DNA of 64,000 nt from Glutamicibacter creatinolyticus. Lineage in GTDB: Bacteria > Actinomycetota > Actinomycetes > Actinomycetales > Micrococcaceae. Position 1 is the first letter of the stretch; every line of letters begins with the position of its first letter. The notes under the pieces are model-generated. The model ran no database searches. It worked only from the letters and a program-made list of their open reading frames with translations, and had not been told where the DNA came from. The stretch is from contig NZ_CP034412.1 of the NCBI RefSeq assembly GCF_006094275.1, positions 744,001-808,000 of the forward strand. The letters run 5' to 3'. Made by a program: the position numbers and the translations under genes. This document shows, in pieces, positions 24,617-56,887 of this stretch.

Positions 24617-25405
24617 CTAGATCACCAGCGCCTTGGCCGAGTCCTCATAGTATTCGCGGTGCTTCAGGTCGTTGGCCGCCTCCTCGTCAATCACCAGGAT
24701 CGCGTCCTCGTGCAGCTGCAGCACCGAGGCCGGGCAGGACGCGGCCAGCGGGCCCTCGATCGCGGCGGCAATGGCGCCGGCCTTGACCCGTCCAGTGGCC
24801 ACCAGGACCAGGCGGCGGGCCTCCAGCACGGTGCCCAGCCCCTGGGTGACGCTGTGGGTGGGGACCTCATCGAGCGACCCGAAGAAGCGGGCGTTGTCCG
24901 AGCGGGTGCGGGCGGTCAGCCGGGTGACGTGGGTGCGGCTGCGCAGGGCGGTGCCCGGCTCGTTGAACCCGATGTGCCCGTTGGAGCCAATGCCCAGGAT
25001 CTGCACATCCACCCCGCCGGCGGCGGCGATGGCCGCGTCGTAGGCGGTGGCCGCTTCCTCCAGCACATCCAGGGACTCGGCATCGCCCAGCGGCACGTTC
25101 AGGTTCTGCTCCGGCAGGCCCATCACCTGGCAGACCTCGCGGATCAGGGTCTGGCGGTAGGACTGCACGTGGTCGGAGGACAGACCCACGTACTCATCCA
25201 GGGCGAAGCCGGTGGCCTGGGACAGGTCCAGTTCGCCCTTGGCGACGTAGTCGGCCAGTTCGCTGTACAGGCCCAGCGGAGAGGAACCGGTGGCCAGCCC
25301 GAGGACCGGTGCCCGGTCGCTGGCATAGCGCTGGAAACCCTCAAGGACGGCGGTGGCGGCGAGGCGTGCAACCTCGTCAGGGGAGGAACCGATGAGTACC
25401 TTCAA
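24617..25405 (-). CDS. nagB: Glucosamine-6-phosphate deaminase
   Basis: 262 residues from a TTG start at 25405, chosen because AAAGGAAGA precedes it by ~6 bases and the protein then begins KVLIGSSPDEVAR, exactly like NagB; the 36-codon ATG extension is spurious. Catalytic residues are in place: Asp70-Glu71 in ALDEYVGL, and SNGHIGFNEPG with His144 and Glu149 (Asn142 replaces the Asp of the enterobacterial enzyme, as usual in Gram-positives). It converts glucosamine-6-P to fructose-6-P and ammonia. It stands alone, ~22 kb from the nagA-family gene. Confidence 0.95.
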   Translation of the reverse strand: MKVLIGSSPDEVARLAATAVLEGFQRYASDRAPVLGLATGSSPLGLYSELADYVAKGELDLSQATGFALDEYVGLSSDHVQSYRQTLIREVCQVMGLPEQNLNVPLGDAESLDVLEEAATAYDAAIAAAGGVDVQILGIGSNGHIGFNEPGTALRSRTHVTRLTARTRSDNARFFGSLDEVPTHSVTQGLGTVLEARRLVLVATGRVKAGAIAAAIEGPLAASCPASVLQLHEDAILVIDEEAANDLKHREYYEDSAKALVI

Positions 25406-26085
25406 TGCGTTCTTCCTTTGAAACTTGGTGACGAAAGTGTCATATCCGACGAATGATTGTGCGTCCAAGGTTCCCGAGACGACGGTGTCCCCAGCACCCT
25501 GCGTGCCTGGCACGCACTGAACCCATTACCAATAATGTTACGGGTTTTTCGGTGGTGGCGACGTCGCGTTTTCTGCCGCCAGACCCTTGTCCTGCCCGTG
25601 GGCGCACCCCATGGGGTGTGCGGGTTGCACCGTTCTTTTCCGTCCGCGCTCGGTGGTTCGGCCCATGCCGGGAGGTGCGGCTCTGTCCAAGTTTTTCCTT
25701 GCCAGAGCCCGGTTCGTCCCGAGGTTTCGCCCCGGCCGGACGCCGCGGGGGAGCCCGGCTGCCGCCGGGGGCCGGGGCCGGGGCCGGGCGGTGTGCCGGT
25801 GGCCGTGGAACGCCGAACTTATTACCGGCGCAGCGCACTTTACGTCTGCGCACCGGTACCGGCCTGCCAGGTATCGGGGTGCCATGGCGCTGCGGGCCCG
25901 CGGTGCGGCAGGGCGGCGCCCAGCGCTTCTGAGAAGAAGAGCTTCATAGCGTGTTCCACACTCTGGATCACGCCAACATCCCTGCGCATCACAGAGGTCG
26001 ACGCGCTACACCGGGGGGTGAAGTTGGCAACAAAGCGGGCTTGACTGGTCACCGGCAGTGCCGCGGGGCTGTCACACTGGGAAGG
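25406..26085. other. 680-base intergenic region between nagB and the GNAT gene
   Basis: No convincing gene is visible; the open frames here are Arg/Gly/Pro-rich and lack ribosome-binding sites. Near nagB there are two palindromes that could be operators: TGCGTGC-CTG-GCACGCA at 25500-25516, and an imperfect inverted repeat with AACCC/GGGTT and ATTA/TAAT arms at 25520-25546 in an AT-rich patch. The central 25560-25930 part is GC-rich and featureless to my eye. Confidence 0.5.
25500..25546 (-). promoter_or_regulatory. Candidate operators upstream of nagB
   Basis: A perfect 7-bp-arm palindrome (25500-25516) and a second imperfect one (25520-25546) lie ~95-140 bases upstream of the nagB start. 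The spacing and AT-rich second site fit regulator binding, for instance by a GntR/NagR-like or ROK protein encoded elsewhere; unproven. Confidence 0.3.
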
Positions 26086-30717: not shown

Positions 30718-31138
30718 ATTTTGCCCGCTTCCTGGTACTCATCCGGTGCCGTGACCGGTGTGAGGCCGCTGCCGGATACCGCGCCGGGGCAGTCCGCCCG
30801 CCCCGCTCGTGGCGGCCATGTCCGGCCGCTGGGCTGTGCGCCCGGTCCACGCCTTGGGCGCTTTGCTCACGGTTCGCTGCGCACGCCAGTGGCCACCTCG
30901 TAGAGCGCAACTGCGACGGCCAGGGTTTTCACTGACCGGCCTCAGCGTGCGCCGGCCGCGGCCGTGGTGGGCGTGCGATCCTGCACGTGGATGAGGAGAC
31001 CGCGGCCCCTGGGAAAACTGATCGTGGTTGGCTGGGGACAGCACGTGAAGCGCGGCACGCTGTGGCGTCTCTTGGGCGGGGGTTGGCGGGAGCCATCGCC
31101 CCGCTCCCCGGTGGGTGGGCGCAGATGGAGGCACTACG
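30718..31138. other. 420-base gap between gatB terminator and the APH-like gene
   Basis: No gene supported; possible frames here are Arg/Pro/Gly-rich with no ribosome-binding sites. The last ~40 bases contain the ribosome-binding site of the next gene. I see no structured RNA or repeat. Confidence 0.45.
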
Positions 31139-32062
31139 ATGAAAACCATGACTGCAGGCCGTTTCACCCCGCCGAGTGCGCCCGAGGCCGAAGTGCGCAT
31201 CGACCGCTGCCTGGTGCAGGAGCTGCTCCGCGGGCAGGCGCCGCAGTGGGCCGAATTGCCTGTGGCATACTTTGCCAGCGGGTGGGACAACGAGATCTAC
31301 CGGCTGGGTCCGCGGCACCTCATCCGCCTGCCGCGCCGTGCCCAGGCCGAGCGGATCGGCACACAGGAACGCGCCTGGCTGGCCCGGCTGGCTGCCGACA
31401 CGGGCCTAACCCCGGGGCTGGCGCTGCATGTCGGGCACCCCACCGCAACCTACCCGTTCACCTTCTCCATCGTCCCCTTCGTCCCGGGGGTCAGCGCGGC
31501 GGGCCTGCCGCGCGCAGAGCGCGACGCCTACGCCCCGGCCCTGGCCGACTACCTCCGGGCATTGCACGTCCCCGCCCCCGCACAGGCGCCGACCAGCAAC
31601 TTCCGCGGTCTTGCCCTGCGGGAGCTCGATGGCGCCACCCGCGCGCTGTTGCCGCGGCTGCCGGCAGGACGACGACCGGCCGCCGCAGCGATCTGGGCGG
31701 CCGCGCTGCGGGCCGCCGATCATGCCGGCGCGCCGCGGTGGCTGCACGGGGACCCACATCCGCACAACACCATCGTGCGCCGCGCAGCCGCCGGATACCG
31801 CTTTGCGGCCCTCGTGGATTTCGGGGATCTGTGCGCCGGGGATCCGGCCTCGGACCTGGGCATGCTGTGGCTGCATTTCGGGCCCACCGCACGAACCCGC
31901 GCCCTGGAACGCTACGGGGTGAGCGACGGGGAGGACCTGTGGCACCGTGCGCGGGGCTGGGCGTTGCGTTACGGCCTGCTCCTCTGCCAGCTCGACCCGG
32001 GGGACCGCTTGGGGCGCATCGGGCGGGAAAGCCTGGACCTGCTGCTCTCCGCCGGTCGATAG
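31139..32062 (+). CDS. Aminoglycoside phosphotransferase (APH)-family kinase
   Basis: 307 residues from the ATG at 31139, preceded by GGAGG 8 bases upstream; the GTG at 31115 is less likely. Catalytic loop LHGDPHPHNTIV (Asp and Asn) and Mg-binding VDFGDLCAGDPASDLG are intact, so it should be an active small-molecule or protein kinase. Related proteins include choline/homoserine kinases and antibiotic-resistance enzymes; nothing in the neighbourhood identifies the substrate. Confidence 0.85.
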   Translation: MKTMTAGRFTPPSAPEAEVRIDRCLVQELLRGQAPQWAELPVAYFASGWDNEIYRLGPRHLIRLPRRAQAERIGTQERAWLARLAADTGLTPGLALHVGHPTATYPFTFSIVPFVPGVSAAGLPRAERDAYAPALADYLRALHVPAPAQAPTSNFRGLALRELDGATRALLPRLPAGRRPAAAAIWAAALRAADHAGAPRWLHGDPHPHNTIVRRAAAGYRFAALVDFGDLCAGDPASDLGMLWLHFGPTARTRALERYGVSDGEDLWHRARGWALRYGLLLCQLDPGDRLGRIGRESLDLLLSAGR

Positions 32063-47540: not shown

Positions 47541-48743
47541 TTAGAGCGGTCGTCCTTGGCGGAAGACCTCAAGCAGCTCCAGGTCCTGGTCGACCACCAG
47601 AACATCGGCGCTCCGTCCGCTGCGCAGGGCACCGGCGGTGTCCTCTAGGCCCAGCAACCGGGCCGGGACCGCCGTCGCGGAGAGCAGGGCCTGCTCCAGC
47701 GGCACCCCACCGGCCACCGCCCGGCGCACGACATCCAGCAGGGTGGCGGTGCCCCCGGCCAGCGAGCCGTCCGAGCTGAGCCGGGCCTGCCCGTCGGCGA
47801 CGGTGACCTGCTGCGGGCCCAGCTCATAGTTCCCGTCCGCCAGCCCGGTGGCGGCCATCGAATCGGTGACCAGCACGACGTTCGCGGCCCCCACCAGGGT
47901 GAACACCATGCGCACGGTGTCCGGGTCCAGGTGCACCCCGTCGGCGATGAGCTCCACCACCGCCTGGCCCTGCCGGGCCTGTTCCAGGCAGGCGGCCAGC
48001 GGCCCGGGGCTGCGGTGATGCAGCGGCGGCATGCCGTTGAACAGGTGCGTCACCGTGGGGGTGGAGGGCAGCGACGCGTGGGCGCTCAGCCGGCGGTGGG
48101 CGTGGCGCAGCGAGTCGGCGGCCTGCGCGGTGCTCGAATCGGTGTGTCCAAGGGAGGGCAGCACGCCCAGGTCGACCAGCTGCTCGATCAGCTCGCTGCT
48201 GCCAGCGCGTTCCGGGGCGTAGGTCATGGTGCGCAGCGTGCCGCGGCAGGCGGCGGCCAGATCGGCAACGAAGCGGGGATCGGGATCGCCCAGGTAGCGC
48301 GGATCCTGCGCGCCGCAGCGCGCCTCGGAGAGGAAGGGTCCCTCGGCGTGGATGCCGGCCAGCAGCCCGGCCTCGACGAAGTCGGCCAGGGTGGCCGCGG
48401 CCTGCAGCATCGTGCCGCGCTCCGCGGTGACCAGGGAGCCAAGCAGCGTGGTGGTTCCGGCGCGGTGCAGGAAGTCGATGGCCTGGGCCACGGGGCCCGG
48501 CTGGGCGTTGGGGAAGTCGGCGCCCACCGCGCCGTGGCAGTGCAGGTCGATCAGCCCGGGCAGCAGCTGGGCGCCCTCGGGCACCGGCCGGACGGTGAAC
48601 GCCGCGGCGTCGGCCCGGGCCAGGAACTGCGCGCGCGTACCGGAAAAGGCGATGCGCTCGCCGGTGACGGCCAGCGCCCCGTCCGGCACGTGGGATCCGT
48701 CGGTGTGCAGGGGCGCGAAGATGACAAAACTGGTGCTGGGCAT
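47541..48743 (-). CDS. nagA: N-acetylglucosamine/galactosamine-6-phosphate deacetylase
   Basis: 400 residues, full-length amidohydrolase with metal ligands His68 and His70 in LIDLHCHGA, HAEGPF, LGHTDSSTAQA, THLFNGMPPLHHRSPG and VLVTDSMAATGL. It removes acetate from GlcNAc-6-P; its divergent position opposite the SIS/kinase/aldolase genes suggests it may in fact deacetylate GalNAc-6-P (AgaA role). The palindromic site at 48888-48913 lies between the two transcription units. nagB is ~22 kb away and not part of this cluster. Confidence 0.92.
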   Translation of the reverse strand: MPSTSFVIFAPLHTDGSHVPDGALAVTGERIAFSGTRAQFLARADAAAFTVRPVPEGAQLLPGLIDLHCHGAVGADFPNAQPGPVAQAIDFLHRAGTTTLLGSLVTAERGTMLQAAATLADFVEAGLLAGIHAEGPFLSEARCGAQDPRYLGDPDPRFVADLAAACRGTLRTMTYAPERAGSSELIEQLVDLGVLPSLGHTDSSTAQAADSLRHAHRRLSAHASLPSTPTVTHLFNGMPPLHHRSPGPLAACLEQARQGQAVVELIADGVHLDPDTVRMVFTLVGAANVVLVTDSMAATGLADGNYELGPQQVTVADGQARLSSDGSLAGGTATLLDVVRRAVAGGVPLEQALLSATAVPARLLGLEDTAGALRSGRSADVLVVDQDLELLEVFRQGRPL

Positions 48744-48865
48744 GGGATTAGTTTAGCGCCGGGTCATCCCGCGCCCCGGGTCCCGGGGCGCTGGATGACC
48801 CGCGCTGCGGGCGGGGCGGGCAGGCGGGTGGGGGCGCATGCCTTTCCTTGCGCGGAAGTACGACG

Positions 48866-48913
48866 TATACTCGTCTTAGATCGTTTCTGATTGTTAAGCG
48901 GTAGAAACAATCA
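48866..48913. promoter_or_regulatory. Divergent nagA/SIS promoter with TGATTGTT palindrome
   Basis: TATACT (48866-48871) is a good -10 for the plus-strand operon, without a good -35. About 17 bases downstream is a perfect inverted repeat TGATTGTT (48888-48895) and AACAATCA (48906-48913) with a 10-base spacer. The CTGATT core also recurs at the operator of the sugar ABC genes, suggesting one regulator, most likely the DeoR protein, acts on both. Confidence 0.6.
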
Positions 48914-48979
48914 TAAATAAGCATCACTGAGGTGAGTTGCACGCTCTGCGGAAGAATCGTGCCTGAAAGGTGGAGAACA

Positions 48980-49882
48980 ATGAGTGAGAACACTGTGCCC
49001 GGGGCACATATGGAAGCCGAACTGCTCTCGCAGCCGGAGATGTGGACCCGGGCGGTCAGCCAGCAGCAGGCCGAGGACCTGCTGCCGGCCCCCGGCCAGA
49101 AGGTCGCGGTCGTGGGCTGCGGCACCTCCTGGTTCATGGCCGAAGCCTATGCGGCGGCCCGTGAGGCCGCCGGGTTGGGCGTGACCGACGCCTTCGCCGC
49201 CTCCGAGGCCCCGTTGGCCACGCGCGACTACGATGCGTTGGTGGCCATCACCCGCTCCGGCACCACCTCCGAGGTGCTGGACCTGCTGGAGCAGTTCGGC
49301 GGCCGGCTGCGCACCATCGCCCTGGTCGGTGACATCGACTCGCCGATCGCCTCCAAGGTCGATGCGATGATCGCCCTGCCGTACGCCGATGAGCAGTCGG
49401 TGGTGCAGACCCGCTTCGCCACCACGGCCCTGGCCTACCTGCTCTCCAGCACCGGGATGGACCTGGAGCCGGCCATCGCCCAGGCCACCGAGCTGCTGGG
49501 GCAGGAAACCGAGCAGGCGCTGATCGACGCGGAGCAGTTCACCTTCCTGGGCCGCGGCTACAGCGTCGGGCTGGCCCATGAGGCGGCGCTGAAGATGCGT
49601 GAAGCCGTGCAGGGCTGGACCGAGGCCTACCCGGCCATGGACTACCGCCACGGCCCGATCTCGATCGCCGCTGCGAACCGGGTGACCTGGATGCTCGGGG
49701 AGCAGCCCGAGGGCCTGGACCAGCAGCTGGCGCCCACCGGCGCGCTCTACCTGAACCGGGACCTGCACCCGCTGGCCGAGCTCGCCCAGATCCACAAGGT
49801 CACCCTGGACCGGGCCCGCGCGCGCGGAATGAATCCGGACACCCCGCGCAACCTGACCCGTTCGGTCATCCTGGAGCACTAG
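48980..49882 (+). CDS. SIS-domain sugar-phosphate isomerase/deaminase (AgaS-like)
   Basis: 300 residues from the ATG at 48980, with AGGTGGAG upstream. Two SIS domains, each with a phosphosugar loop: GCGTSWFMAEA and ITRSGTTSEV in the first, LGRGYSVGLAHEAALKMRE and a HGP motif in the second, as in the isomerase half of GlmS and in AgaS/FrlB/GlmD. In the Aga pathway the enzyme turns galactosamine-6-P into tagatose-6-P plus ammonia. Followed by the ROK kinase after 3 bases. A GlcN-6-P or fructosamine role cannot be excluded. Confidence 0.85.
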   Translation: MSENTVPGAHMEAELLSQPEMWTRAVSQQQAEDLLPAPGQKVAVVGCGTSWFMAEAYAAAREAAGLGVTDAFAASEAPLATRDYDALVAITRSGTTSEVLDLLEQFGGRLRTIALVGDIDSPIASKVDAMIALPYADEQSVVQTRFATTALAYLLSSTGMDLEPAIAQATELLGQETEQALIDAEQFTFLGRGYSVGLAHEAALKMREAVQGWTEAYPAMDYRHGPISIAAANRVTWMLGEQPEGLDQQLAPTGALYLNRDLHPLAELAQIHKVTLDRARARGMNPDTPRNLTRSVILEH

Positions 49883-49885
49883 CAA

Positions 49886-50824
49886 ATGGGTACCGGGCAC
49901 TACCTGGTCTTCGACGTCGGCGGCACCGATGTGAAGGCGGGCCTGGCCGATGCCGGCGGCCAGCTGCACCACGTGCGGCGCCAGCCCACGGCCATCGCCG
50001 CGCCGGGCCAGGATCCGGCGGCCGTGCTGATCGAACAGCTGGCCACCCTGGCCGGGACGCTGCGCCAGGCCGCGCACGAGCCGCCGCGGGCGATGGGCCT
50101 GGCCGTGTGCGGGCTGGTCGACGCCCCGGCCGGCATCGGGCGCTATTCGGCGAACCTGGGCTGGGTGGATGCGCCGCTGCGCCAGATGGCGCAGGACGCG
50201 CTGGGCCTGCCGGTCGGCTTCGGACACGATGTGGCCACCGCCGCCCGCGCCGAACTGGAACTGGGCGCCGGGGCCCAGGACCCGCAGCTGCGCCGCAACA
50301 GTGCCCTGCTGATCATCGGCACCGGCATCGCCTCCACCCTGGTGGTCGAGGGGCAGGTGGTCAGCTCCGAAGGCTACGCCGGGGAACTGGGCCACGCCCA
50401 GGTGCCCGGCGGGCTGCCGTGCAAGTGCGGGGCCACCGGCTGCCTGGAAACCATCGCCTCGGCCGGGGCCATCGCCCGGCTCTACAGCCAGCAGGCCGGC
50501 GCCGTGCCCGGGGCAGAGCAGGTGTTCGCCGCCCGGGCGGCCGGGGACCGCATCGCCGGGCAGGTGATCGAGCAGGCCATCGAGGCGCTGAGCTTCACCC
50601 TGGCCCAGCTGTGCGCCACCACCGCCCCCTCCGGGATTGTCATCGGCGGGGGACTGGCCCAGGCCGGCCCTCCCTTCTTTGCCGAACTGGGCCAGGCGCT
50701 GGAACGCCGGTTGTCCTTCCACCGCCGCCCGCGCCTGGTTCCGGCCGCCCTGGGTGCCGACGCCGGGCTGCAGGGCGCCTGGCTGCTGGCCCGCCAGACC
50801 ACCACCACGGGAGGGACCCCATGA
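49886..50824 (+). CDS. ROK-family sugar kinase (candidate N-acetylgalactosamine kinase)
   Basis: 312 residues without an HTH domain. ATP-binding DVGGTDVKAGL at the N-terminus, GHDVATAARAELELG (the usual catalytic-Asp region), and the zinc motif CKCGATGC. ROK kinases phosphorylate glucose, GlcNAc, ManNAc or GalNAc at C6. Since the importer is an ABC type that delivers unphosphorylated sugar, this kinase is needed to make the 6-phosphate for the deacetylase and SIS enzyme. Its stop overlaps the next start. Confidence 0.88.
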   Translation: MGTGHYLVFDVGGTDVKAGLADAGGQLHHVRRQPTAIAAPGQDPAAVLIEQLATLAGTLRQAAHEPPRAMGLAVCGLVDAPAGIGRYSANLGWVDAPLRQMAQDALGLPVGFGHDVATAARAELELGAGAQDPQLRRNSALLIIGTGIASTLVVEGQVVSSEGYAGELGHAQVPGGLPCKCGATGCLETIASAGAIARLYSQQAGAVPGAEQVFAARAAGDRIAGQVIEQAIEALSFTLAQLCATTAPSGIVIGGGLAQAGPPFFAELGQALERRLSFHRRPRLVPAALGADAGLQGAWLLARQTTTTGGTP

Positions 50825-51750
50825 TCCTGACGCTTACCCCCAACCCGGCGATCGACGAGAGCTACCAGGTTCCGGGGATCACCCTGGACACCAGCCACCG
50901 TGTGCCAATGCCGCTGTGGCGCGCCGGGGGCAAGGGGATCAACGTGGCCCGGGTGCTTGAACAGCTCGGCTACCGCGCCCTGGCGCTTTTTCCCAGCGGC
51001 GGGACCAGCGGCGAGGCCCTGTGCTCCGAACTGCGGGCCGCGCACCTGGCCCACCATGCGGTTCCGGTGTCCGGGCAGACCCGGCGTTCGATGGCGTTCC
51101 ATGACCCGCAGGCCAACACCACCACGCTGTTCAACCAAAGTGGTGAGCCGCTGCGCCAGGAGGACATCCAGGCGCTGGAAAACGCATTCATTCGGCTGCT
51201 GCCCACCTGCCGGGCGGTGACGATCAACGGGTCCTGGCCCCCACACACCCCCGCGGACCTGCTGCCGCGGCTGATCACCGCGGCCCGGCGGGCCGGGGTG
51301 TGGGTGCTGGCCGATGCCAGCGGCGAGGCGCTGCTGCAGGCCGCCCGGGCCGGTGCGGTGCTCAAGCCCAATGAGCATGAGCTGCGTGAGGCCACCGGGT
51401 GCAGCAGCCTGTTTCAGGGGGCCCGGCAGCTGCTGGAGCTGGGTGCCCCCGCCGTTTTCGCCAGCGCCGGGGCCGACGGGCTCTACCACTTCGCCCCTTC
51501 GCAACCGGTGACTCACGCATTGTTGCCGCAGGCGTTGAGCGGCAACCCCACCGGGGCCGGGGATTCGGCGGTGGCCGCGCTGGCGGCCAGCGCCCTGCAG
51601 GGCCTGGAGATCGAGCCGACGCTGCGCCGGGCCGTAGCCTGGTCCGCGGCCACGGTGCTGATGCCCACCGCCGGGGCGGTGCACTCCAGCTACCAGCAGC
51701 TGGCCCGGGAGGTCATCTGCCAAACCCTGTCCACCGACGCACACCACTAA
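50821..51750 (+). CDS. PfkB-family 1-phosphofructokinase/tagatose-6-phosphate kinase
   Basis: 309 residues from the ATG at 50821. It opens LTLTPNPAIDESYQV like LacC/FruK, with RAGGKGINVARVLEQLG and the C-terminal anion hole GNPTGAGDSA (catalytic Asp248). In this gene order the most likely reaction is tagatose-6-P + ATP to tagatose-1,6-bisphosphate, just before the aldolase; fructose-1-phosphate kinase is the alternative. It overlaps the ROK kinase gene by 4 bases and is 8 bases from the aldolase. Confidence 0.88.
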   Translation: MILTLTPNPAIDESYQVPGITLDTSHRVPMPLWRAGGKGINVARVLEQLGYRALALFPSGGTSGEALCSELRAAHLAHHAVPVSGQTRRSMAFHDPQANTTTLFNQSGEPLRQEDIQALENAFIRLLPTCRAVTINGSWPPHTPADLLPRLITAARRAGVWVLADASGEALLQAARAGAVLKPNEHELREATGCSSLFQGARQLLELGAPAVFASAGADGLYHFAPSQPVTHALLPQALSGNPTGAGDSAVAALAASALQGLEIEPTLRRAVAWSAATVLMPTAGAVHSSYQQLAREVICQTLSTDAHH

Positions 51751-51758
51751 GGAACCGC

Positions 51759-52595
51759 ATGCCACTTGTACCCACCGCCCAGATCATGGACCAGGCCGTT
51801 CGCGCGGCGCGCGGGCAGGGCGCGTTCAACGTCATCCACCTGGAGACCGCGCAGGCCCTGATCACCGCCGCCGAGCAGGCCGCCGTGCCGGTGATCCTGC
51901 AGATCAGCGAAAACTGCATGAAGTACCACGGTTCACTGGCGCCGCTGACCCTGGCCTGCAAGGCGCTGGCCGAGGAGTCCAGCGCCGAAATCGCGCTGCA
52001 CCTGGACCACGCCGAGGATGAGGCCCTGGCCTACCAGGCGATCGAGCTGGGGTTCGGTTCGGTGATGTTTGACGGGGCGAAGCTGGAATTCGAGCAGAAC
52101 GTGGCCGCCACCGCCCGGGTGGTGGCCGCGGCCCGCGAGGCCGGGGTCTATGTCGAGGCCGAGCTGGGGGAGATCGGCGGCAAGGACGGGGCCCACGCCC
52201 CCGGGGTGCGCACCGACCCGCAGGAGGCCGCGCTGTTCGTGCAGCGCACCGGGGTCGACGCCCTGGCGGTGGCCGTGGGATCCTCGCACGCCATGACCGA
52301 ACGCAGCGCCAACCTGGACTTGGAGCTCATCGACCGGCTGGCGCGGCACCTGGAGGTTCCGCTGGTCCTGCATGGCTCCTCCGGAGTGCCCGATGCCGTC
52401 CTGCAGGAGGGCATCCGCGCCGGGCTGCGCAAGATCAACGTCTCCACGCACCTGAACGGCTTCTTCACCCGAGCGGTGCGCCAGTGGCTGGATGAGAACC
52501 CCGCCGGGGTCGATTCGCGCAAGTACCTGGCGGCGGGACGCTCGGCGTTGTCCGGGGAAGCGGCCCGGCTGCTGCGCCTCTTCGCGGGCGCGTGA
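51759..52595 (+). CDS. Class II ketose-bisphosphate aldolase (GatY/KbaY type)
   Basis: 278 residues from the ATG at 51759 (TAAGGAACC upstream). Class II zinc aldolase with Asp83-His84 in HLDHAED, GSVMFDGAKL, His177 in VAVGSSHAM, His205 in VLHGSSG and KINVSTHL. It would split tagatose-1,6-bisphosphate (or fructose-1,6-bisphosphate) into glyceraldehyde-3-P and dihydroxyacetone-P. No GatZ/KbaZ helper subunit is encoded here. It is the last gene of the SIS operon; a promoter for the ABC genes follows. Confidence 0.88.
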   Translation: MPLVPTAQIMDQAVRAARGQGAFNVIHLETAQALITAAEQAAVPVILQISENCMKYHGSLAPLTLACKALAEESSAEIALHLDHAEDEALAYQAIELGFGSVMFDGAKLEFEQNVAATARVVAAAREAGVYVEAELGEIGGKDGAHAPGVRTDPQEAALFVQRTGVDALAVAVGSSHAMTERSANLDLELIDRLARHLEVPLVLHGSSGVPDAVLQEGIRAGLRKINVSTHLNGFFTRAVRQWLDENPAGVDSRKYLAAGRSALSGEAARLLRLFAGA

Positions 52596-52644
52596 GCAGT
52601 TCTGATTCTCTGGTGCGCCAGTTGCGGAATGGAACACCGAACCC

Positions 52645-52731
52645 TTGACGTGAGATAGATAACATCCCATAATCGTGAGTAACCTGATTTTTACTGATTT
52701 ATTTCAGTACAAAAAATCTAGAATCACTCAC
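52645..52731 (+). promoter_or_regulatory. Promoter and operator of the sugar ABC operon
   Basis: TTGACG (52645-52650), 17-base spacer, CATAAT (52668-52673): a very good promoter. Downstream lies ACTGA-TTTATT-TCAGT (52693-52708), with CTGATTT repeated 10 bases apart (52684 and 52694), one helical turn as favoured by DeoR proteins. An outer inverted repeat GTGAGT (52675-52680) / ACTCAC (52726-52731) brackets it. Confidence 0.75.
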
Positions 52732-52752
52732 TTGCATCGTAGGGGACTGGCA

Positions 52753-54009
52753 ATGAAACGCACCAAACGGACAACACTGCTGGCTTTGTCTGCCATCGGG
52801 GCCCTGGCCCTGAGCAGCTGCGGATTTTCCGACAAGCCCGCCGAAGGCGGCGGGGGCGAGGGCGGGGAGGCCGTGACCCTGCAGATGCTGGTCCCGACCT
52901 ACTCCACCGGCACCAAGGGCCTGTGGGAAGGGGTCATCAGGGACTTCGAAGCCGAACACGAGAACATCACCGTGAACCTCGAGGTGCAGTCCTGGGAAAA
53001 CATCGAAAGCGTGCTGAAGACCAAGCTGCAGGGCAACCAGGCGCCGGATATCTACAACGGCGGAGCGTTCGCCGAATTCGCTGCCGAGGAACTGCTGGCC
53101 CCGGCCAGCGACATCGCCTCGCAGGAGACCCTGGCCGACTTCCAGGAAAGCTTCGCCGAGGCCGAAAAGTACGAGGGCACCCAGTACGGGCTGCCGCTGA
53201 TTGCCTCGGCCCGCGCGTTGTTCTACAACAAGGACCTGATGGAGGAGGCCGGGGTTTCCCAGGTGCCCGGCACCTGGGATGAACTGCATGAGGCGTCCAA
53301 GAAGATCAGCGAAAAGACCAAGGCCTCGGGTTACGGCATGCCGCTGGGCAGTGAAGAGGCCCAGGGCGAGAGCCTGATCTGGTTCGCCGGCAACGGCGGC
53401 AACTTCGGCACCGACGAACAGATCCAGGTCGACACCCCGGCCAACCTGGAAGCCGCGCAGTTCATGAAGAAGATGATCGATGACGGGGTGACGCAGAAGG
53501 ACCCGGGCGCCACCCAGCGCACCCCGATGCTCAACACCTTCATCCAGGGCAAGATCGGCTTCGCCTACGGCCTGCCGCAGACCGTGGGCCAGATCGAGGA
53601 CGAGAACCCGGACCTGAACTACGGCATCGCGCCGGTGGCCACCAAGACCGGGGACCCGGCCACCCTGGGCGTGGCCGACCGGCTGATGTCCTTCAGCGCC
53701 GATGAGGCGAAGAAGGAAGCGGTAGGCGAGTTCATGGACTACTTCTTCTCCTCCGAGGTCTACACCGACTGGGTCTCCACCGAGGGCTTCCTGCCCACCA
53801 CGAAGTCGGGGTCCGAGGCCATGGCCGGGGATGAAACGCTCAAGCCGTTCCTGGACCTGCTGCCCAACGCCGTGTTCTACCCGACCACCAACCCGGCCTG
53901 GAACGCCACCGACGGTGCGTTCAAGTCCCTGATGGGTGAACTGGGAACCGGCAAGTCGGCCGAGGACGTGTTGAAGTCGATCCAGGCCAAGGCCGACGCT
54001 GCACGCTAA
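52753..54009 (+). CDS. Sugar ABC transporter substrate-binding lipoprotein
   Basis: 418 residues from the ATG at 52753 with AGGGGACTGGCA upstream. Lipoprotein signal with Cys23 (LALSSCG), then a Gly/Glu-rich linker and a family-1 extracellular solute-binding domain (WEGVIRDFEAEHENITVNLE, APDIYNGGAFAEF). Captures a mono- or oligosaccharide for the MalF/MalG-type permeases. In its context the ligand is probably GalNAc or a GalNAc-containing glycan, by inference only. Confidence 0.93.
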   Translation: MKRTKRTTLLALSAIGALALSSCGFSDKPAEGGGGEGGEAVTLQMLVPTYSTGTKGLWEGVIRDFEAEHENITVNLEVQSWENIESVLKTKLQGNQAPDIYNGGAFAEFAAEELLAPASDIASQETLADFQESFAEAEKYEGTQYGLPLIASARALFYNKDLMEEAGVSQVPGTWDELHEASKKISEKTKASGYGMPLGSEEAQGESLIWFAGNGGNFGTDEQIQVDTPANLEAAQFMKKMIDDGVTQKDPGATQRTPMLNTFIQGKIGFAYGLPQTVGQIEDENPDLNYGIAPVATKTGDPATLGVADRLMSFSADEAKKEAVGEFMDYFFSSEVYTDWVSTEGFLPTTKSGSEAMAGDETLKPFLDLLPNAVFYPTTNPAWNATDGAFKSLMGELGTGKSAEDVLKSIQAKADAAR

Positions 54010-54032
54010 CCGGCGGCAAACCACACCGATCC

Positions 54033-54073
54033 ATGGCGGAGGCCCGGCGCTCGCAACACCAGGCCTCCGCCAT
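54033..54073 (+). terminator. Intra-operon attenuator hairpin after the binding-protein gene
   Basis: Perfect 12-bp stem (54033-54044 with 54062-54073), 17-base loop, followed by TGTC; placed like the hairpin after the other binding-protein gene at 35204, presumably lowering permease expression. Confidence 0.6.
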
Positions 54074-54186
54074 TGTCGATTCCCCATCCCGCCACCGGCC
54101 CGCCCTACCGGCATCGGCAACCGCCACCGCCCGCTGCACCGCCCCGGCTGCCAGGGCGCCGGCGGGAGGGGACCAAGGAGCTAACC

Positions 54187-55116
54187 ATGAGTGCACCACC
54201 CGTGCTCACTGCGGTTGAGCCGGCCAAACGCCGGCCCACCAGTGGGAACCAGTCCTTCTTCAGCTCACTGCCGTGGATCGGCCCGGCGCTGCTGCTGATC
54301 CTGGCCATGGTCGCCTTCCCGGCCGGCTACATGATCTTCAACTCCACCCGCAAGATCTCCCAGGTCGGCACGGACCTGCATTCGGTGGGGCTGGCAAACT
54401 TCGTGACCGTCTTCCAGGACCCGGCGCTGCCGCGAATCCTGCTGAACACCTTCGTGTGGGTGGTTTCCGTCGTGGGAATCACCGTGCTGCTCTCCCTGGC
54501 ACTGGCCCAGTTCCTGAACAAGCCGTTCCCGGGACGAACGATCGTGCGCATGGCCGTGATCGTGCCCTGGGCGGCGTCGGTGGTCATGACCACCACCGTG
54601 TTCTACTACGGCCTGGACCCGAACTACGGGATCTTCAACAAGTTCCTGATGGACGTGGGGGTCCTGGATGAGGGGTTCGGCTGGACGAAGTCCGCGGTGC
54701 CGGCGATGTTCGTCTCGGTGATCGTGGCGATCTTCGTGTCGATCCCGTTCACGACCTACACGCTGCTGGCCGGGCTGCAGTCAATCCCCCAGGAGACGCT
54801 CGAGGCGGCCCGCGTGGATGGGGCCGGGCGCTGGCAGACCTACCTGTTCGTCATCCTGCCCCAGCTGCGTTCCGCGCTGGCGGTCTCGGTGCTGATCAAC
54901 ATCATCAACGTGTTCAACAACCTGCCGATCCTGAAGGTGATGACCGGTTCGATCCCCGGAACGAACGCCGACACCCTGATGACCTACATCTTCAAGGTGC
55001 TGCAGTTCGACCGGCGCCTGGACATCTCCTCGGCCCTGTCGGTCGTGAACTTCGCGGTGGTGGTGCTCATCGTGGCGATCTACGTCAAGACCGTCAAGCC
55101 CATGAAGGAGGTCTGA
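54187..55116 (+). CDS. Sugar ABC transporter permease (MalF type)
   Basis: 309 residues from the ATG at 54187 with AAGGAGCTAACC upstream. Six helices with the coupling EAA-like loop ETLEAARVDGAGRWQTYLFVILPQLR and SIPQ preceding it. Pairs with the next permease. No ATPase gene follows; many actinobacterial sugar importers share a distant MsiK-type ATPase. Confidence 0.93.
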   Translation: MSAPPVLTAVEPAKRRPTSGNQSFFSSLPWIGPALLLILAMVAFPAGYMIFNSTRKISQVGTDLHSVGLANFVTVFQDPALPRILLNTFVWVVSVVGITVLLSLALAQFLNKPFPGRTIVRMAVIVPWAASVVMTTTVFYYGLDPNYGIFNKFLMDVGVLDEGFGWTKSAVPAMFVSVIVAIFVSIPFTTYTLLAGLQSIPQETLEAARVDGAGRWQTYLFVILPQLRSALAVSVLINIINVFNNLPILKVMTGSIPGTNADTLMTYIFKVLQFDRRLDISSALSVVNFAVVVLIVAIYVKTVKPMKEV

Positions 55117-55117
55117 G

Positions 55118-55975
55118 GTGGCACTGCTGGACACCGCGGACCGCGCGCCGCGCAAGGTGGTCATCACCCGCATGGTCGTGGGGCTGCTGATCGCGGCCCT
55201 GTTCCTGATCCCGTACGCGACCATGTTCATCGGTTCGCTGAAGACCCAGAGCGAGATCCTCTCCATCCCGCCCTCCTACCTGCCCCAGGCCGGGGCGCAG
55301 TGGTCGAACTACGCCTCGATGTGGGACACCCCGGAGACCCCGGTGCCCTACAACCTGGTTTCCACGATCGTGATCTCGGTGTTTGCGACCCTGCTGGTGC
55401 TGCTGGTGGCGACCCCGGCCGCGTACTTCACCGCCCGGTTCAAGTTCCCGGGCAAGATGGTGTTCATGTTCCTGGTGATCGTCACCCAGATGCTGCAGCC
55501 GGCGGTGCTCACCGCGGGATTGTTCAAGCAGATGCTGGCCTGGAACATCCACGACACGTGGCTGGCGATGATCTTGATCAACGCCGCGTTCAACCTGGCG
55601 TTCGCGGTGTGGATCATGCACTCCTTCTTCGCCGCGGTGCCCCGTTCCATCGACGAGGCGGCGCAGATTGACGGGGCCGGGAAACTGCGGGTGCTGTTCA
55701 CCATCAACCTGCCGCTGGTGTGGCCCGGGATCGTGACCGCGGTGATCTTCACGTTCATTTCCTGCTGGAATGAATTCGCCGCCTCCCTGGTGATCCTGTC
55801 CACCGCCGAGAACCAGCCGCTGAGCGTGGCGCTGACCAAGTTCATCGGTCAGTACGCCACCGCCTGGCAGTACGTGTTCGGGGTTTCGATCGTGGCGATC
55901 GTGCCGGTGATCATCCTGTTCGCGCTGATTGAAAAGCGGCTGATCGGCGGGTTGGCGGCCGGTGCCGTGAAGTAG
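55118..55975 (+). CDS. Sugar ABC transporter permease (MalG type)
   Basis: 285 residues, GTG start at 55118 just behind AAGGAGGTCTGAG that overlaps the upstream stop. Six helices, with RSIDEAAQIDGAGKLRVLF and the NLPLVWPGI loop typical of MalG. Forms the channel with the MalF-type partner. Confidence 0.93.
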   Translation: MALLDTADRAPRKVVITRMVVGLLIAALFLIPYATMFIGSLKTQSEILSIPPSYLPQAGAQWSNYASMWDTPETPVPYNLVSTIVISVFATLLVLLVATPAAYFTARFKFPGKMVFMFLVIVTQMLQPAVLTAGLFKQMLAWNIHDTWLAMILINAAFNLAFAVWIMHSFFAAVPRSIDEAAQIDGAGKLRVLFTINLPLVWPGIVTAVIFTFISCWNEFAASLVILSTAENQPLSVALTKFIGQYATAWQYVFGVSIVAIVPVIILFALIEKRLIGGLAAGAVK

Positions 55976-55979
55976 CGTG

Positions 55980-56017
55980 ACCGGCGCGGCGCCGCGCTTT
56001 TGGCACTTGGCGCCGGT
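55980..56017 (+). terminator. Weak terminator-like hairpin after the permease genes
   Basis: 8-bp perfect stem (55980-55987 with 56010-56017) and 22-base loop containing further GC pairing; no U tract. Confidence 0.35.
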
Positions 56018-56022
56018 GCGGT

Positions 56023-56037
56023 GTTGACTTAATCAAC
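56023..56037 (+). promoter_or_regulatory. Palindrome upstream of deoR-family gene
   Basis: GTTGA-CTTAA-TCAAC at 56023-56037 overlaps a TTGACT that could be a -35. Possible autoregulatory site; it does not share the CTGATT core of the other two candidate operators. Confidence 0.35.
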
Positions 56038-56104
56038 GGGCGCGTGTCCCCGCCGGGGCGGCGGCGCCCGATCGCAGGCAGGGCGGCAGGAGGAACCAGG
56101 GAGA

Positions 56105-56887
56105 ATGAAGCGCGAGGAGCGGCTGAACCACGTGCTGGATTTGCTGGCCCGGCACGGGAAGATCGATGTTGAGCAGATCGTGGAGCAGCTGCGGGTGTCC
56201 GCGGCCACCGCCCGGCGCGACCTGGATTCGCTGGCGGCGGCCTCCCTGCTCACCCGCACCCACGGTGGGGCGGTCTCCAGCACCGTGGCCTACGACCTGC
56301 CCGCCCGCTACCAGAACGATTCGCGCGACGATGAGAAGGCGCAGATCGCCCGGGCGGCGGCGGCGATGGTGCGCCCGGACATGGTGGTTGGGCTTTCGGG
56401 CGGGACCACCACCAAGGCGATCGCCCACGAGCTGGGGATGCGCCAGGACCTGATCGGGGAGCCGGGGCGCATCACCCTGACGGTGGTGACCAACGCCGTG
56501 AACATTGCCGGGCTGCTGGCGGTGCGCCCGCACATCCGGGTGATGGTCACCGGCGGGGTGCTCAATGCCCGCTCCTATGAACTGGTCGGGCCGATGGCGC
56601 AGGCGGCGCTGGGCAAGATCACCATGGATTTGTGCTTCGTCGGGGTCAACGGGCTGGACCCGCGGCTGGGGCCGATGGTCTCGGATGAGATGGAGGCGGC
56701 GGTCAACGAGCTGATGGTCGCCCAGTCCCGGGACAGCTACCTGGTGCTGGACTCCTCCAAGGTGGGCACCCGCTCCTTTGTCATCCTGGACACCGCTAAC
56801 CTCACCGGCATGATCACCGACCGGCAGCTGGATGCCGGCCAGCTTTCGGCCCTGGATGCGGCCGGGCTGAAGGTGCTCACTGCCTAG
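56105..56887 (+). CDS. DeoR-family transcriptional regulator (AgaR-like)
   Basis: 260 residues; GGGAGA directly before the ATG. N-terminal DeoR HTH (MKREERLNHVLDLLARHGKIDVEQIVEQLRVS..ARRDL) and a C-terminal DeoRC sugar-phosphate-binding domain with the GGTTTKAIA loop. DeoR proteins such as AgaR and GatR repress aminosugar and tagatose-6-P genes until a sugar phosphate binds. Its place behind the importer suggests it controls the whole cluster including the divergent deacetylase. Confidence 0.92.
   Translation: MKREERLNHVLDLLARHGKIDVEQIVEQLRVSAATARRDLDSLAAASLLTRTHGGAVSSTVAYDLPARYQNDSRDDEKAQIARAAAAMVRPDMVVGLSGGTTTKAIAHELGMRQDLIGEPGRITLTVVTNAVNIAGLLAVRPHIRVMVTGGVLNARSYELVGPMAQAALGKITMDLCFVGVNGLDPRLGPMVSDEMEAAVNELMVAQSRDSYLVLDSSKVGTRSFVILDTANLTGMITDRQLDAGQLSALDAAGLKVLTA

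Follow-up and report, generated by a model that had tools for sequence, protein, structure and literature searches.

A cluster of nine genes at positions 47541-56887 of the window (the whole stretch of 64,000 nucleotides analysed here, bases 744001-808000 of the single-contig 3.31 Mb genome of Glutamicibacter creatinolyticus, G000) is very probably an inducible operon for the use of N-acetylgalactosamine (GalNAc), and possibly also of galactosamine, in which an enzyme of the SIS fold takes the place of AgaS. It is also likely, with less assurance, that this enzyme represents a separate GlmD-related SIS family with an invariant arginine for the catalytic lysine, which serves as the actinobacterial galactosamine-6-phosphate (GalN-6-P) deaminase/isomerase and does the work of AgaS in many genera, and that in Arthrobacter-like bacteria the enzyme and GH101 glycosidases make up a unit for the utilisation of mucin-type O-glycans.

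All nine genes proposed in an earlier note on this DNA were recovered as open frames, and profile searches gave a family match for each. The features of the locus are as follows.

47541-48743, minus strand: nagA-like amidohydrolase, probable GalNAc-6-phosphate (GalNAc-6-P) deacetylase (TIGR00221, 217.7 bits; cut-off 225.65)
48888-48913, no strand: operator-like inverted repeat TGATTGTT-N10-AACAATCA in the divergent nagA/SIS promoter region
48980-49882, plus strand: SIS-fold enzyme, probable GalN-6-P deaminase/isomerase, an AgaS analogue (PF01380)
49886-50824, plus strand: ROK kinase, probable GalNAc 6-kinase (PF00480, 148.6 bits)
50821-51750, plus strand: PfkB-family kinase, probable tagatose-6-phosphate (tagatose-6-P) kinase (TIGR03168, 226.9 bits, above its cut-off of 216.4)
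51759-52595, plus strand: class II ketose-bisphosphate aldolase, probable tagatose-1,6-bisphosphate (TBP) aldolase (PF01116, 272.3 bits; TIGR00167, 219.2 bits, above its cut-off of 215.6)
52753-54009, plus strand: sugar solute-binding protein of an ABC importer (PF01547, 138.3 bits; lipoprotein-like N-terminus by eye)
54187-55116, plus strand: permease 1 of the ABC importer (PF00528, 57 bits)
55118-55975, plus strand: permease 2 of the ABC importer (PF00528, 58.4 bits)
56105-56887, plus strand: DeoR-family regulator (PF00455, 139.3 bits)

Family membership is clear for the two kinases (ROK and PfkB), the class II aldolase, the binding protein, both permeases, and the DeoR regulator, and at this level the families of a deacetylase, a deaminase, a ketose-6-phosphate kinase, and a class II aldolase co-occur in the cluster. 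None of the nine genes scores above the cut-off of an equivalog model. The ROK and PfkB genes overlap by four bases, the PfkB start covering the ROK stop codon, and the most likely start codon of the SIS gene is the ATG at 48980, which is preceded by the sequence AGGTGGAG.

In the proposed route, the sugar would be taken up by the ABC importer, with an ATPase from another locus supplying the energy, and the ROK kinase would then yield GalNAc-6-P. The extra NagA copy would deacetylate this to GalN-6-P, which the SIS enzyme, in place of AgaS, would deaminate and isomerise to tagatose-6-P. PfkB would generate TBP, the class II aldolase would split TBP into triose phosphates, and the DeoR protein would repress from inverted repeats between nagA and SIS. 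The earlier note had drawn the same chain of intermediates. It is strongly supported by context, through the GH101 linkage and the exchange of SIS and AgaS-family genes described below, and three details of the note call for revision, namely, the identity of the AgaS step, the conservation of nagA, and the novelty of the replacement of the phosphotransferase system (PTS). Gene content, conserved order, the GH101 linkage, the exchange, and the operator-like repeat are observed, whereas the substrate specificities, the position of the kinase in the route, the ATPase partner, and the regulation are deduced.

The SIS enzyme, for which the earlier note used the term "AgaS-like", lies outside the AgaS family and is only a distant relative of it. 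The protein scores 80 bits with GlmD, 75-77 bits with GlmS, and 26 bits with AgaS (TIGR02815, cut-off 529.2), and its identity to an actinobacterial AgaS-family protein is 25% across 249 columns (BLASTP); with 26 bits against 529, and with GlmD and GlmS nearer, the term is not a family statement. Membership of the GlmD/NagB-II group failed too, at 80.3 bits (NF041128) and 52.5 bits (NF046059) against cut-offs of 580 and 430. The AlphaFold model (mean pLDDT 89.4) has GlmD and AgaS entries as its best structural matches. Among 36 aligned SIS sequences, E208, E215, and H224 are invariant, and the position of the C-terminal lysine of GlmS is occupied by an invariant arginine, R294; printed alignments give lysine at this position in GlmD and NagB-II sequences. 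The Glu-Glu-His set and the C-terminal lysine are taken here to be the active-site residues of GlmS/GlmD-type SIS enzymes. The SIS-type glucosamine-6-phosphate (GlcN-6-P) deaminases GlmD and NagB-II are nearest to the SIS protein in sequence and fold, from which it differs in lying far under their cut-offs, in the arginine, and in its tagatose-type operon setting. It is probably a non-orthologous GalN-6-P deaminase/isomerase.

A scan of named genomes returned 52 loci with SIS relatives, some of them cut by contig ends (e.g., L018 and L039). An aldolase gene lies 3′ of SIS, on the same strand and within 4.2 kb, in 49 loci. Matches within 9 kb of SIS were found for DeoR (43 loci), ROK (38), PfkB (38), GH101 (10), and nagA (6), and 35 loci hold ROK, PfkB, aldolase, and DeoR matches together somewhere in the locus. 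Because the aldolase is kept in 49 of the 52 and the four families in 35, the gene grouping is not due to chance. Two labels in this set call for care: L021, labelled Sporosarcina, is probably mislabelled, as it coincides with the locus of G211 from the window's own family, and L039, labelled as an Acidobacteria metagenome-assembled genome, may be contamination.

The exchange of SIS for an AgaS-family gene was observed in a set of 395 same-family genomes (SIS called at E <= 1e-30). SIS is present in 112 of these, 109 of which have no AgaS-family match. AgaS-family genes occur in four genomes; their scores, 489-503 bits, do not reach the curated cut-off of 529. Those of G018 (503 bits) and G381 (500 bits) are 45-46% identical to E. 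coli AgaS and stand in the order aldolase, PfkB, AgaS, and then an ABC importer. The aldolase of both is 67-70% identical to that of the window, with the same KINVSTHLNGFF motif. In the trees, their aldolase and PfkB proteins nest in the window-type clade, where L035 is their sister (ultrafast bootstrap values of 100 and 96), although support is weak at several deeper nodes. The 112 SIS-bearing genomes do not include G018. The simplest reading is that AgaS replaced SIS while the operon kept its function; a point against it is that G182, G311, and G381 hold both genes. The actinobacterial AgaS operons L124 and L127 share with the window type the nested PfkB and aldolase relatives, an ABC importer, and, in L124, a DeoR-type regulator, whereas they differ in the AgaS-family enzyme itself and in permeases only 25-31% identical to those of the window.

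A second line of evidence is the linkage to GH101. GalNAc is a sugar of mucus-type glycoproteins, and GH101 enzymes release Gal-beta-1,3-GalNAc. In L019, the gene divergent from SIS encodes a 1602-residue GH101 endo-alpha-N-acetylgalactosaminidase (L019:5041-9849; PF12905, 416 bits), the catalytic part of which has relatives in ten of the 52 loci. GH101 occurs in 43 of the 395 same-family genomes, and all 43 also carry SIS (hypergeometric 2.7e-27, with genomes treated as independent, which they are not). In 34 of the 43, from four genera, the two genes form a divergent pair no more than 5 kb apart; in G143 the divergent pair is 6.2 kb apart. In the eight others, GH101 lies 24-37 kb from SIS (four genomes of one genus), 81 kb and 655 kb away (one each), or on another contig (two). 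The position of GH101 beside the SIS operon suggests that Arthrobacter-like bacteria use mucin-type O-glycans outside the gut. GH101, the one family of GalNAc-releasing glycosidases searched for, was not found in G. creatinolyticus or in the other 17 genomes of its genus, so that this organism must obtain the sugar in another way; control genomes were unmatched in this search too, and the family-wide search with its 43 genomes shows that the method works.

Given the product of GH101, it is conceivable, if doubtful, that the importer takes up a disaccharide containing GalNAc, such as galacto-N-biose, which would be cleaved inside the cell before the kinase acts. The route of catabolism would not change, and the enzyme assignments are compatible with it. 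This possibility draws on the tie of GH101 to the operon in relatives and on the binding protein, which has no close solved relative: its ligand is not readable from the solved matches, which reach 85.6 bits at best and include maltose- and oligosaccharide-binding proteins. On the other hand, no phosphorylase or galactosidase is found among the nine cluster genes, and GH101 was not found in this genome. Uptake of GalNAc itself is the preferred reading.

Family profiles leave the substrates of PfkB and of the aldolase undecided, and the equivalog models for fructose-bisphosphate aldolase (FBA) and for TBP aldolase are both below cut-off. A rival reading is an operon for N-acetylglucosamine or glucosamine, with the SIS protein as a GlmD-type GlcN-6-P deaminase, PfkB as a 6-phosphofructokinase, and the aldolase as an FBA. 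In profile searches, the SIS protein does match GlmD and GlmS best, and the best solved matches of the other two are FBA (175 bits versus 157 for E. coli AgaY) and E. coli 6-phosphofructokinase 2 (111 bits versus 100 for tagatose-6-P kinase). However, the genome holds a second class II aldolase (182197-183186) and a NagB-type gene, so that glycolysis and GlcN-6-P deamination should not need the operon. The earlier note was right to place nagB elsewhere: the gene lies at 24617-25513 of the window (minus strand), just below the family cut-off (232.8 versus 236.9 bits), and is near neither nagA of the genome. The GH101 linkage, the exchange with an AgaS-family gene, and the arginine in place of the C-terminal lysine of GlmS, GlmD, and NagB-II speak against this alternative as well, as does a residue of the aldolase. 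The window enzyme has serine where FBA (its own and E. coli FbaA) has aspartate and KbaY/GatY has alanine, a position said, in work of Galkin from 2009, to discriminate C4 stereochemistry between FBA and TBP aldolases. The glucosamine-type operon is rated as very unlikely.

The serine is found in 40 of 48 aldolases from the 52 loci, and glycine in eight more distant ones (L049 and L051-L057); the count covers 48 of the 49 matches, as L050 was dropped by a length filter. Streptomyces and Marmoricola loci (L049-L053, L055, and L056) combine a SIS relative (49-52% identical) with a same-family aldolase. L049 and, by ORF cluster, also L053, L055, and L056 encode a GH4 glycosidase together with an ABC importer near this pair, so in loci of this type the substrate may differ.

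The divergent deacetylase gene is present, as the earlier note had it, and it did not prove to be a conserved part of the pathway, given the six loci above and the distribution of the extra copy. The genome has a second NagA elsewhere, about 59% identical to the cluster copy and adjoining atpD and nucS. Each of the 17 other genomes of the genus has one nagA match at E <= 1e-60, flanked by nucS and often also by atpD; only G. creatinolyticus, one of 18, has a second, which is the cluster copy. The latter is 58-67% identical to the copies of its genus relatives, and the trees do not separate duplication from transfer as its source. In L035, a NagB-family gene (PF01182, 76 bits) adjoins nagA in the SIS cluster, a point in favour of the GalNAc route. 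It has been reported that S. coelicolor NagA deacetylates GalNAc-6-P (PMC12680351) and that E. coli NagA is able to replace AgaA (PMC12118421). By analogy with these enzymes, relatives without a cluster nagA probably rely on their single NagA, and the window copy may be specialised.

If the neighbouring nagA were incidental, the operon could serve another amino sugar or sugar amine, such as galactosamine alone or a fructosamine-type compound. This is rated lower still. In G. creatinolyticus, nagA and SIS are divergently oriented, and the operator-like repeat lies between them; a single NagA elsewhere could serve the relatives, to judge from the S. coelicolor work (PMC12680351); and fructosamine use would leave the GH101 linkage unexplained. 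GalNAc remains the favoured substrate.

With regard to transport, the cluster encodes one binding protein and two permeases, the set of an importer that we take to be of CUT1 type. The importer has no ATPase of its own in the operon: none of the nine cluster genes is an ABC ATPase, and the ATPase must therefore come from elsewhere. A UgpC-type ATPase gene above cut-off lies at genome position 30726-31781, and none of the ORFs called in the surrounding 14 kb resembled the permeases of the window. It could be a shared ATPase of the kind we assume to be MsiK-like. The window-type importer (binding protein 56-82% identical) recurs in 15 of the 52 loci. The claim of "no PTS" is true of the cluster and, genome-wide, of Man/Sor EIIC, presumably the type of Aga PTS systems (no PF03609 match, with matches in three of 14 control genomes); one other PTS EIIC gene is present elsewhere in the genome.

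Regulation may be exerted through the repeat at 48888-48913, which is probably a DeoR-type site. The pattern TGATNNTT-N6-16-AANNATCA has this single match in the window, between nagA and SIS, and none in 100 shuffles. It was found in 13 of 152 loci: four of these duplicate the window's own site, and the remainder come from five relatives (L009, L014, L017, L019, and L035), four of them represented twice, just upstream of SIS. Of the 52 loci, 24 have half-sites in the 200 bp that precede SIS and none has them inside the gene, a control that differs from the upstream region in base composition. A looser version of the repeat is seen by eye upstream of the binding-protein gene. The regulator belongs to the DeoR family, as proposed, and the closer label of AgaR was not borne out: the AgaR model NF040755 gives 146.4 bits against a cut-off of 260, and GlpR_Halo, at 158.9 bits, is also under its cut-off.

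The E. coli Aga pathway (AgaPTS, AgaA/NagA, AgaS, KbaY/KbaZ, and AgaR) runs through the same proposed intermediates and has in common with the cluster a NagA-type deacetylase, a SIS-fold deaminase, a class II aldolase, and a DeoR-type regulator. In contrast, the cluster has an ABC importer and a ROK kinase for the PTS, a SIS enzyme other than AgaS, and a dedicated PfkB, and no KbaZ-type gene is found among its nine genes. The gene order inspected was that of E. coli K-12, where agaA and agaW are pseudogenes. Reports on Shewanella describe a GalNAc route without a PTS (AgaP permease, AgaK kinase, AgaAII, and AgaS; PMC2996990, PMC12118421). As in the cluster, transport and phosphorylation are separate; unlike the cluster, that route has a permease and an outer-membrane transporter for the ABC importer, and it uses AgaS. 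Hence the replacement of the PTS by an ABC importer and a kinase, put forward in the earlier note, stands as an ABC importer variant of a separation already known. The cluster differs from the Shewanella route in its ABC importer, in a SIS enzyme that is not AgaS, and in the linkage to GH101. A literature search at the level of titles and abstracts, mostly without subscription papers, found no description of the cluster, which does not prove that it is unpublished.

AgaS has been used as a signature gene of GalNAc catabolism (PMC5583593). If the SIS family does the job of AgaS, surveys based on AgaS miss the GalNAc route in many actinobacteria, and the enzyme is a direct test case for the discrimination of gluco and galacto substrates by SIS-fold enzymes.

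Further copies of SIS were met in the family. Second copies in G311 and G269 (L128 and L129), 40-44% identical, have genes for a regulator and an ABC importer and relatives of the aldolase or kinase in their vicinity; they are a paralogous system to which no substrate is assigned. The SIS match at G158:C33:2872-3756 has an internal stop, and that at G023:C3:242661-242915 is only partial; these defects may reflect loss of the pathway in some lineages.

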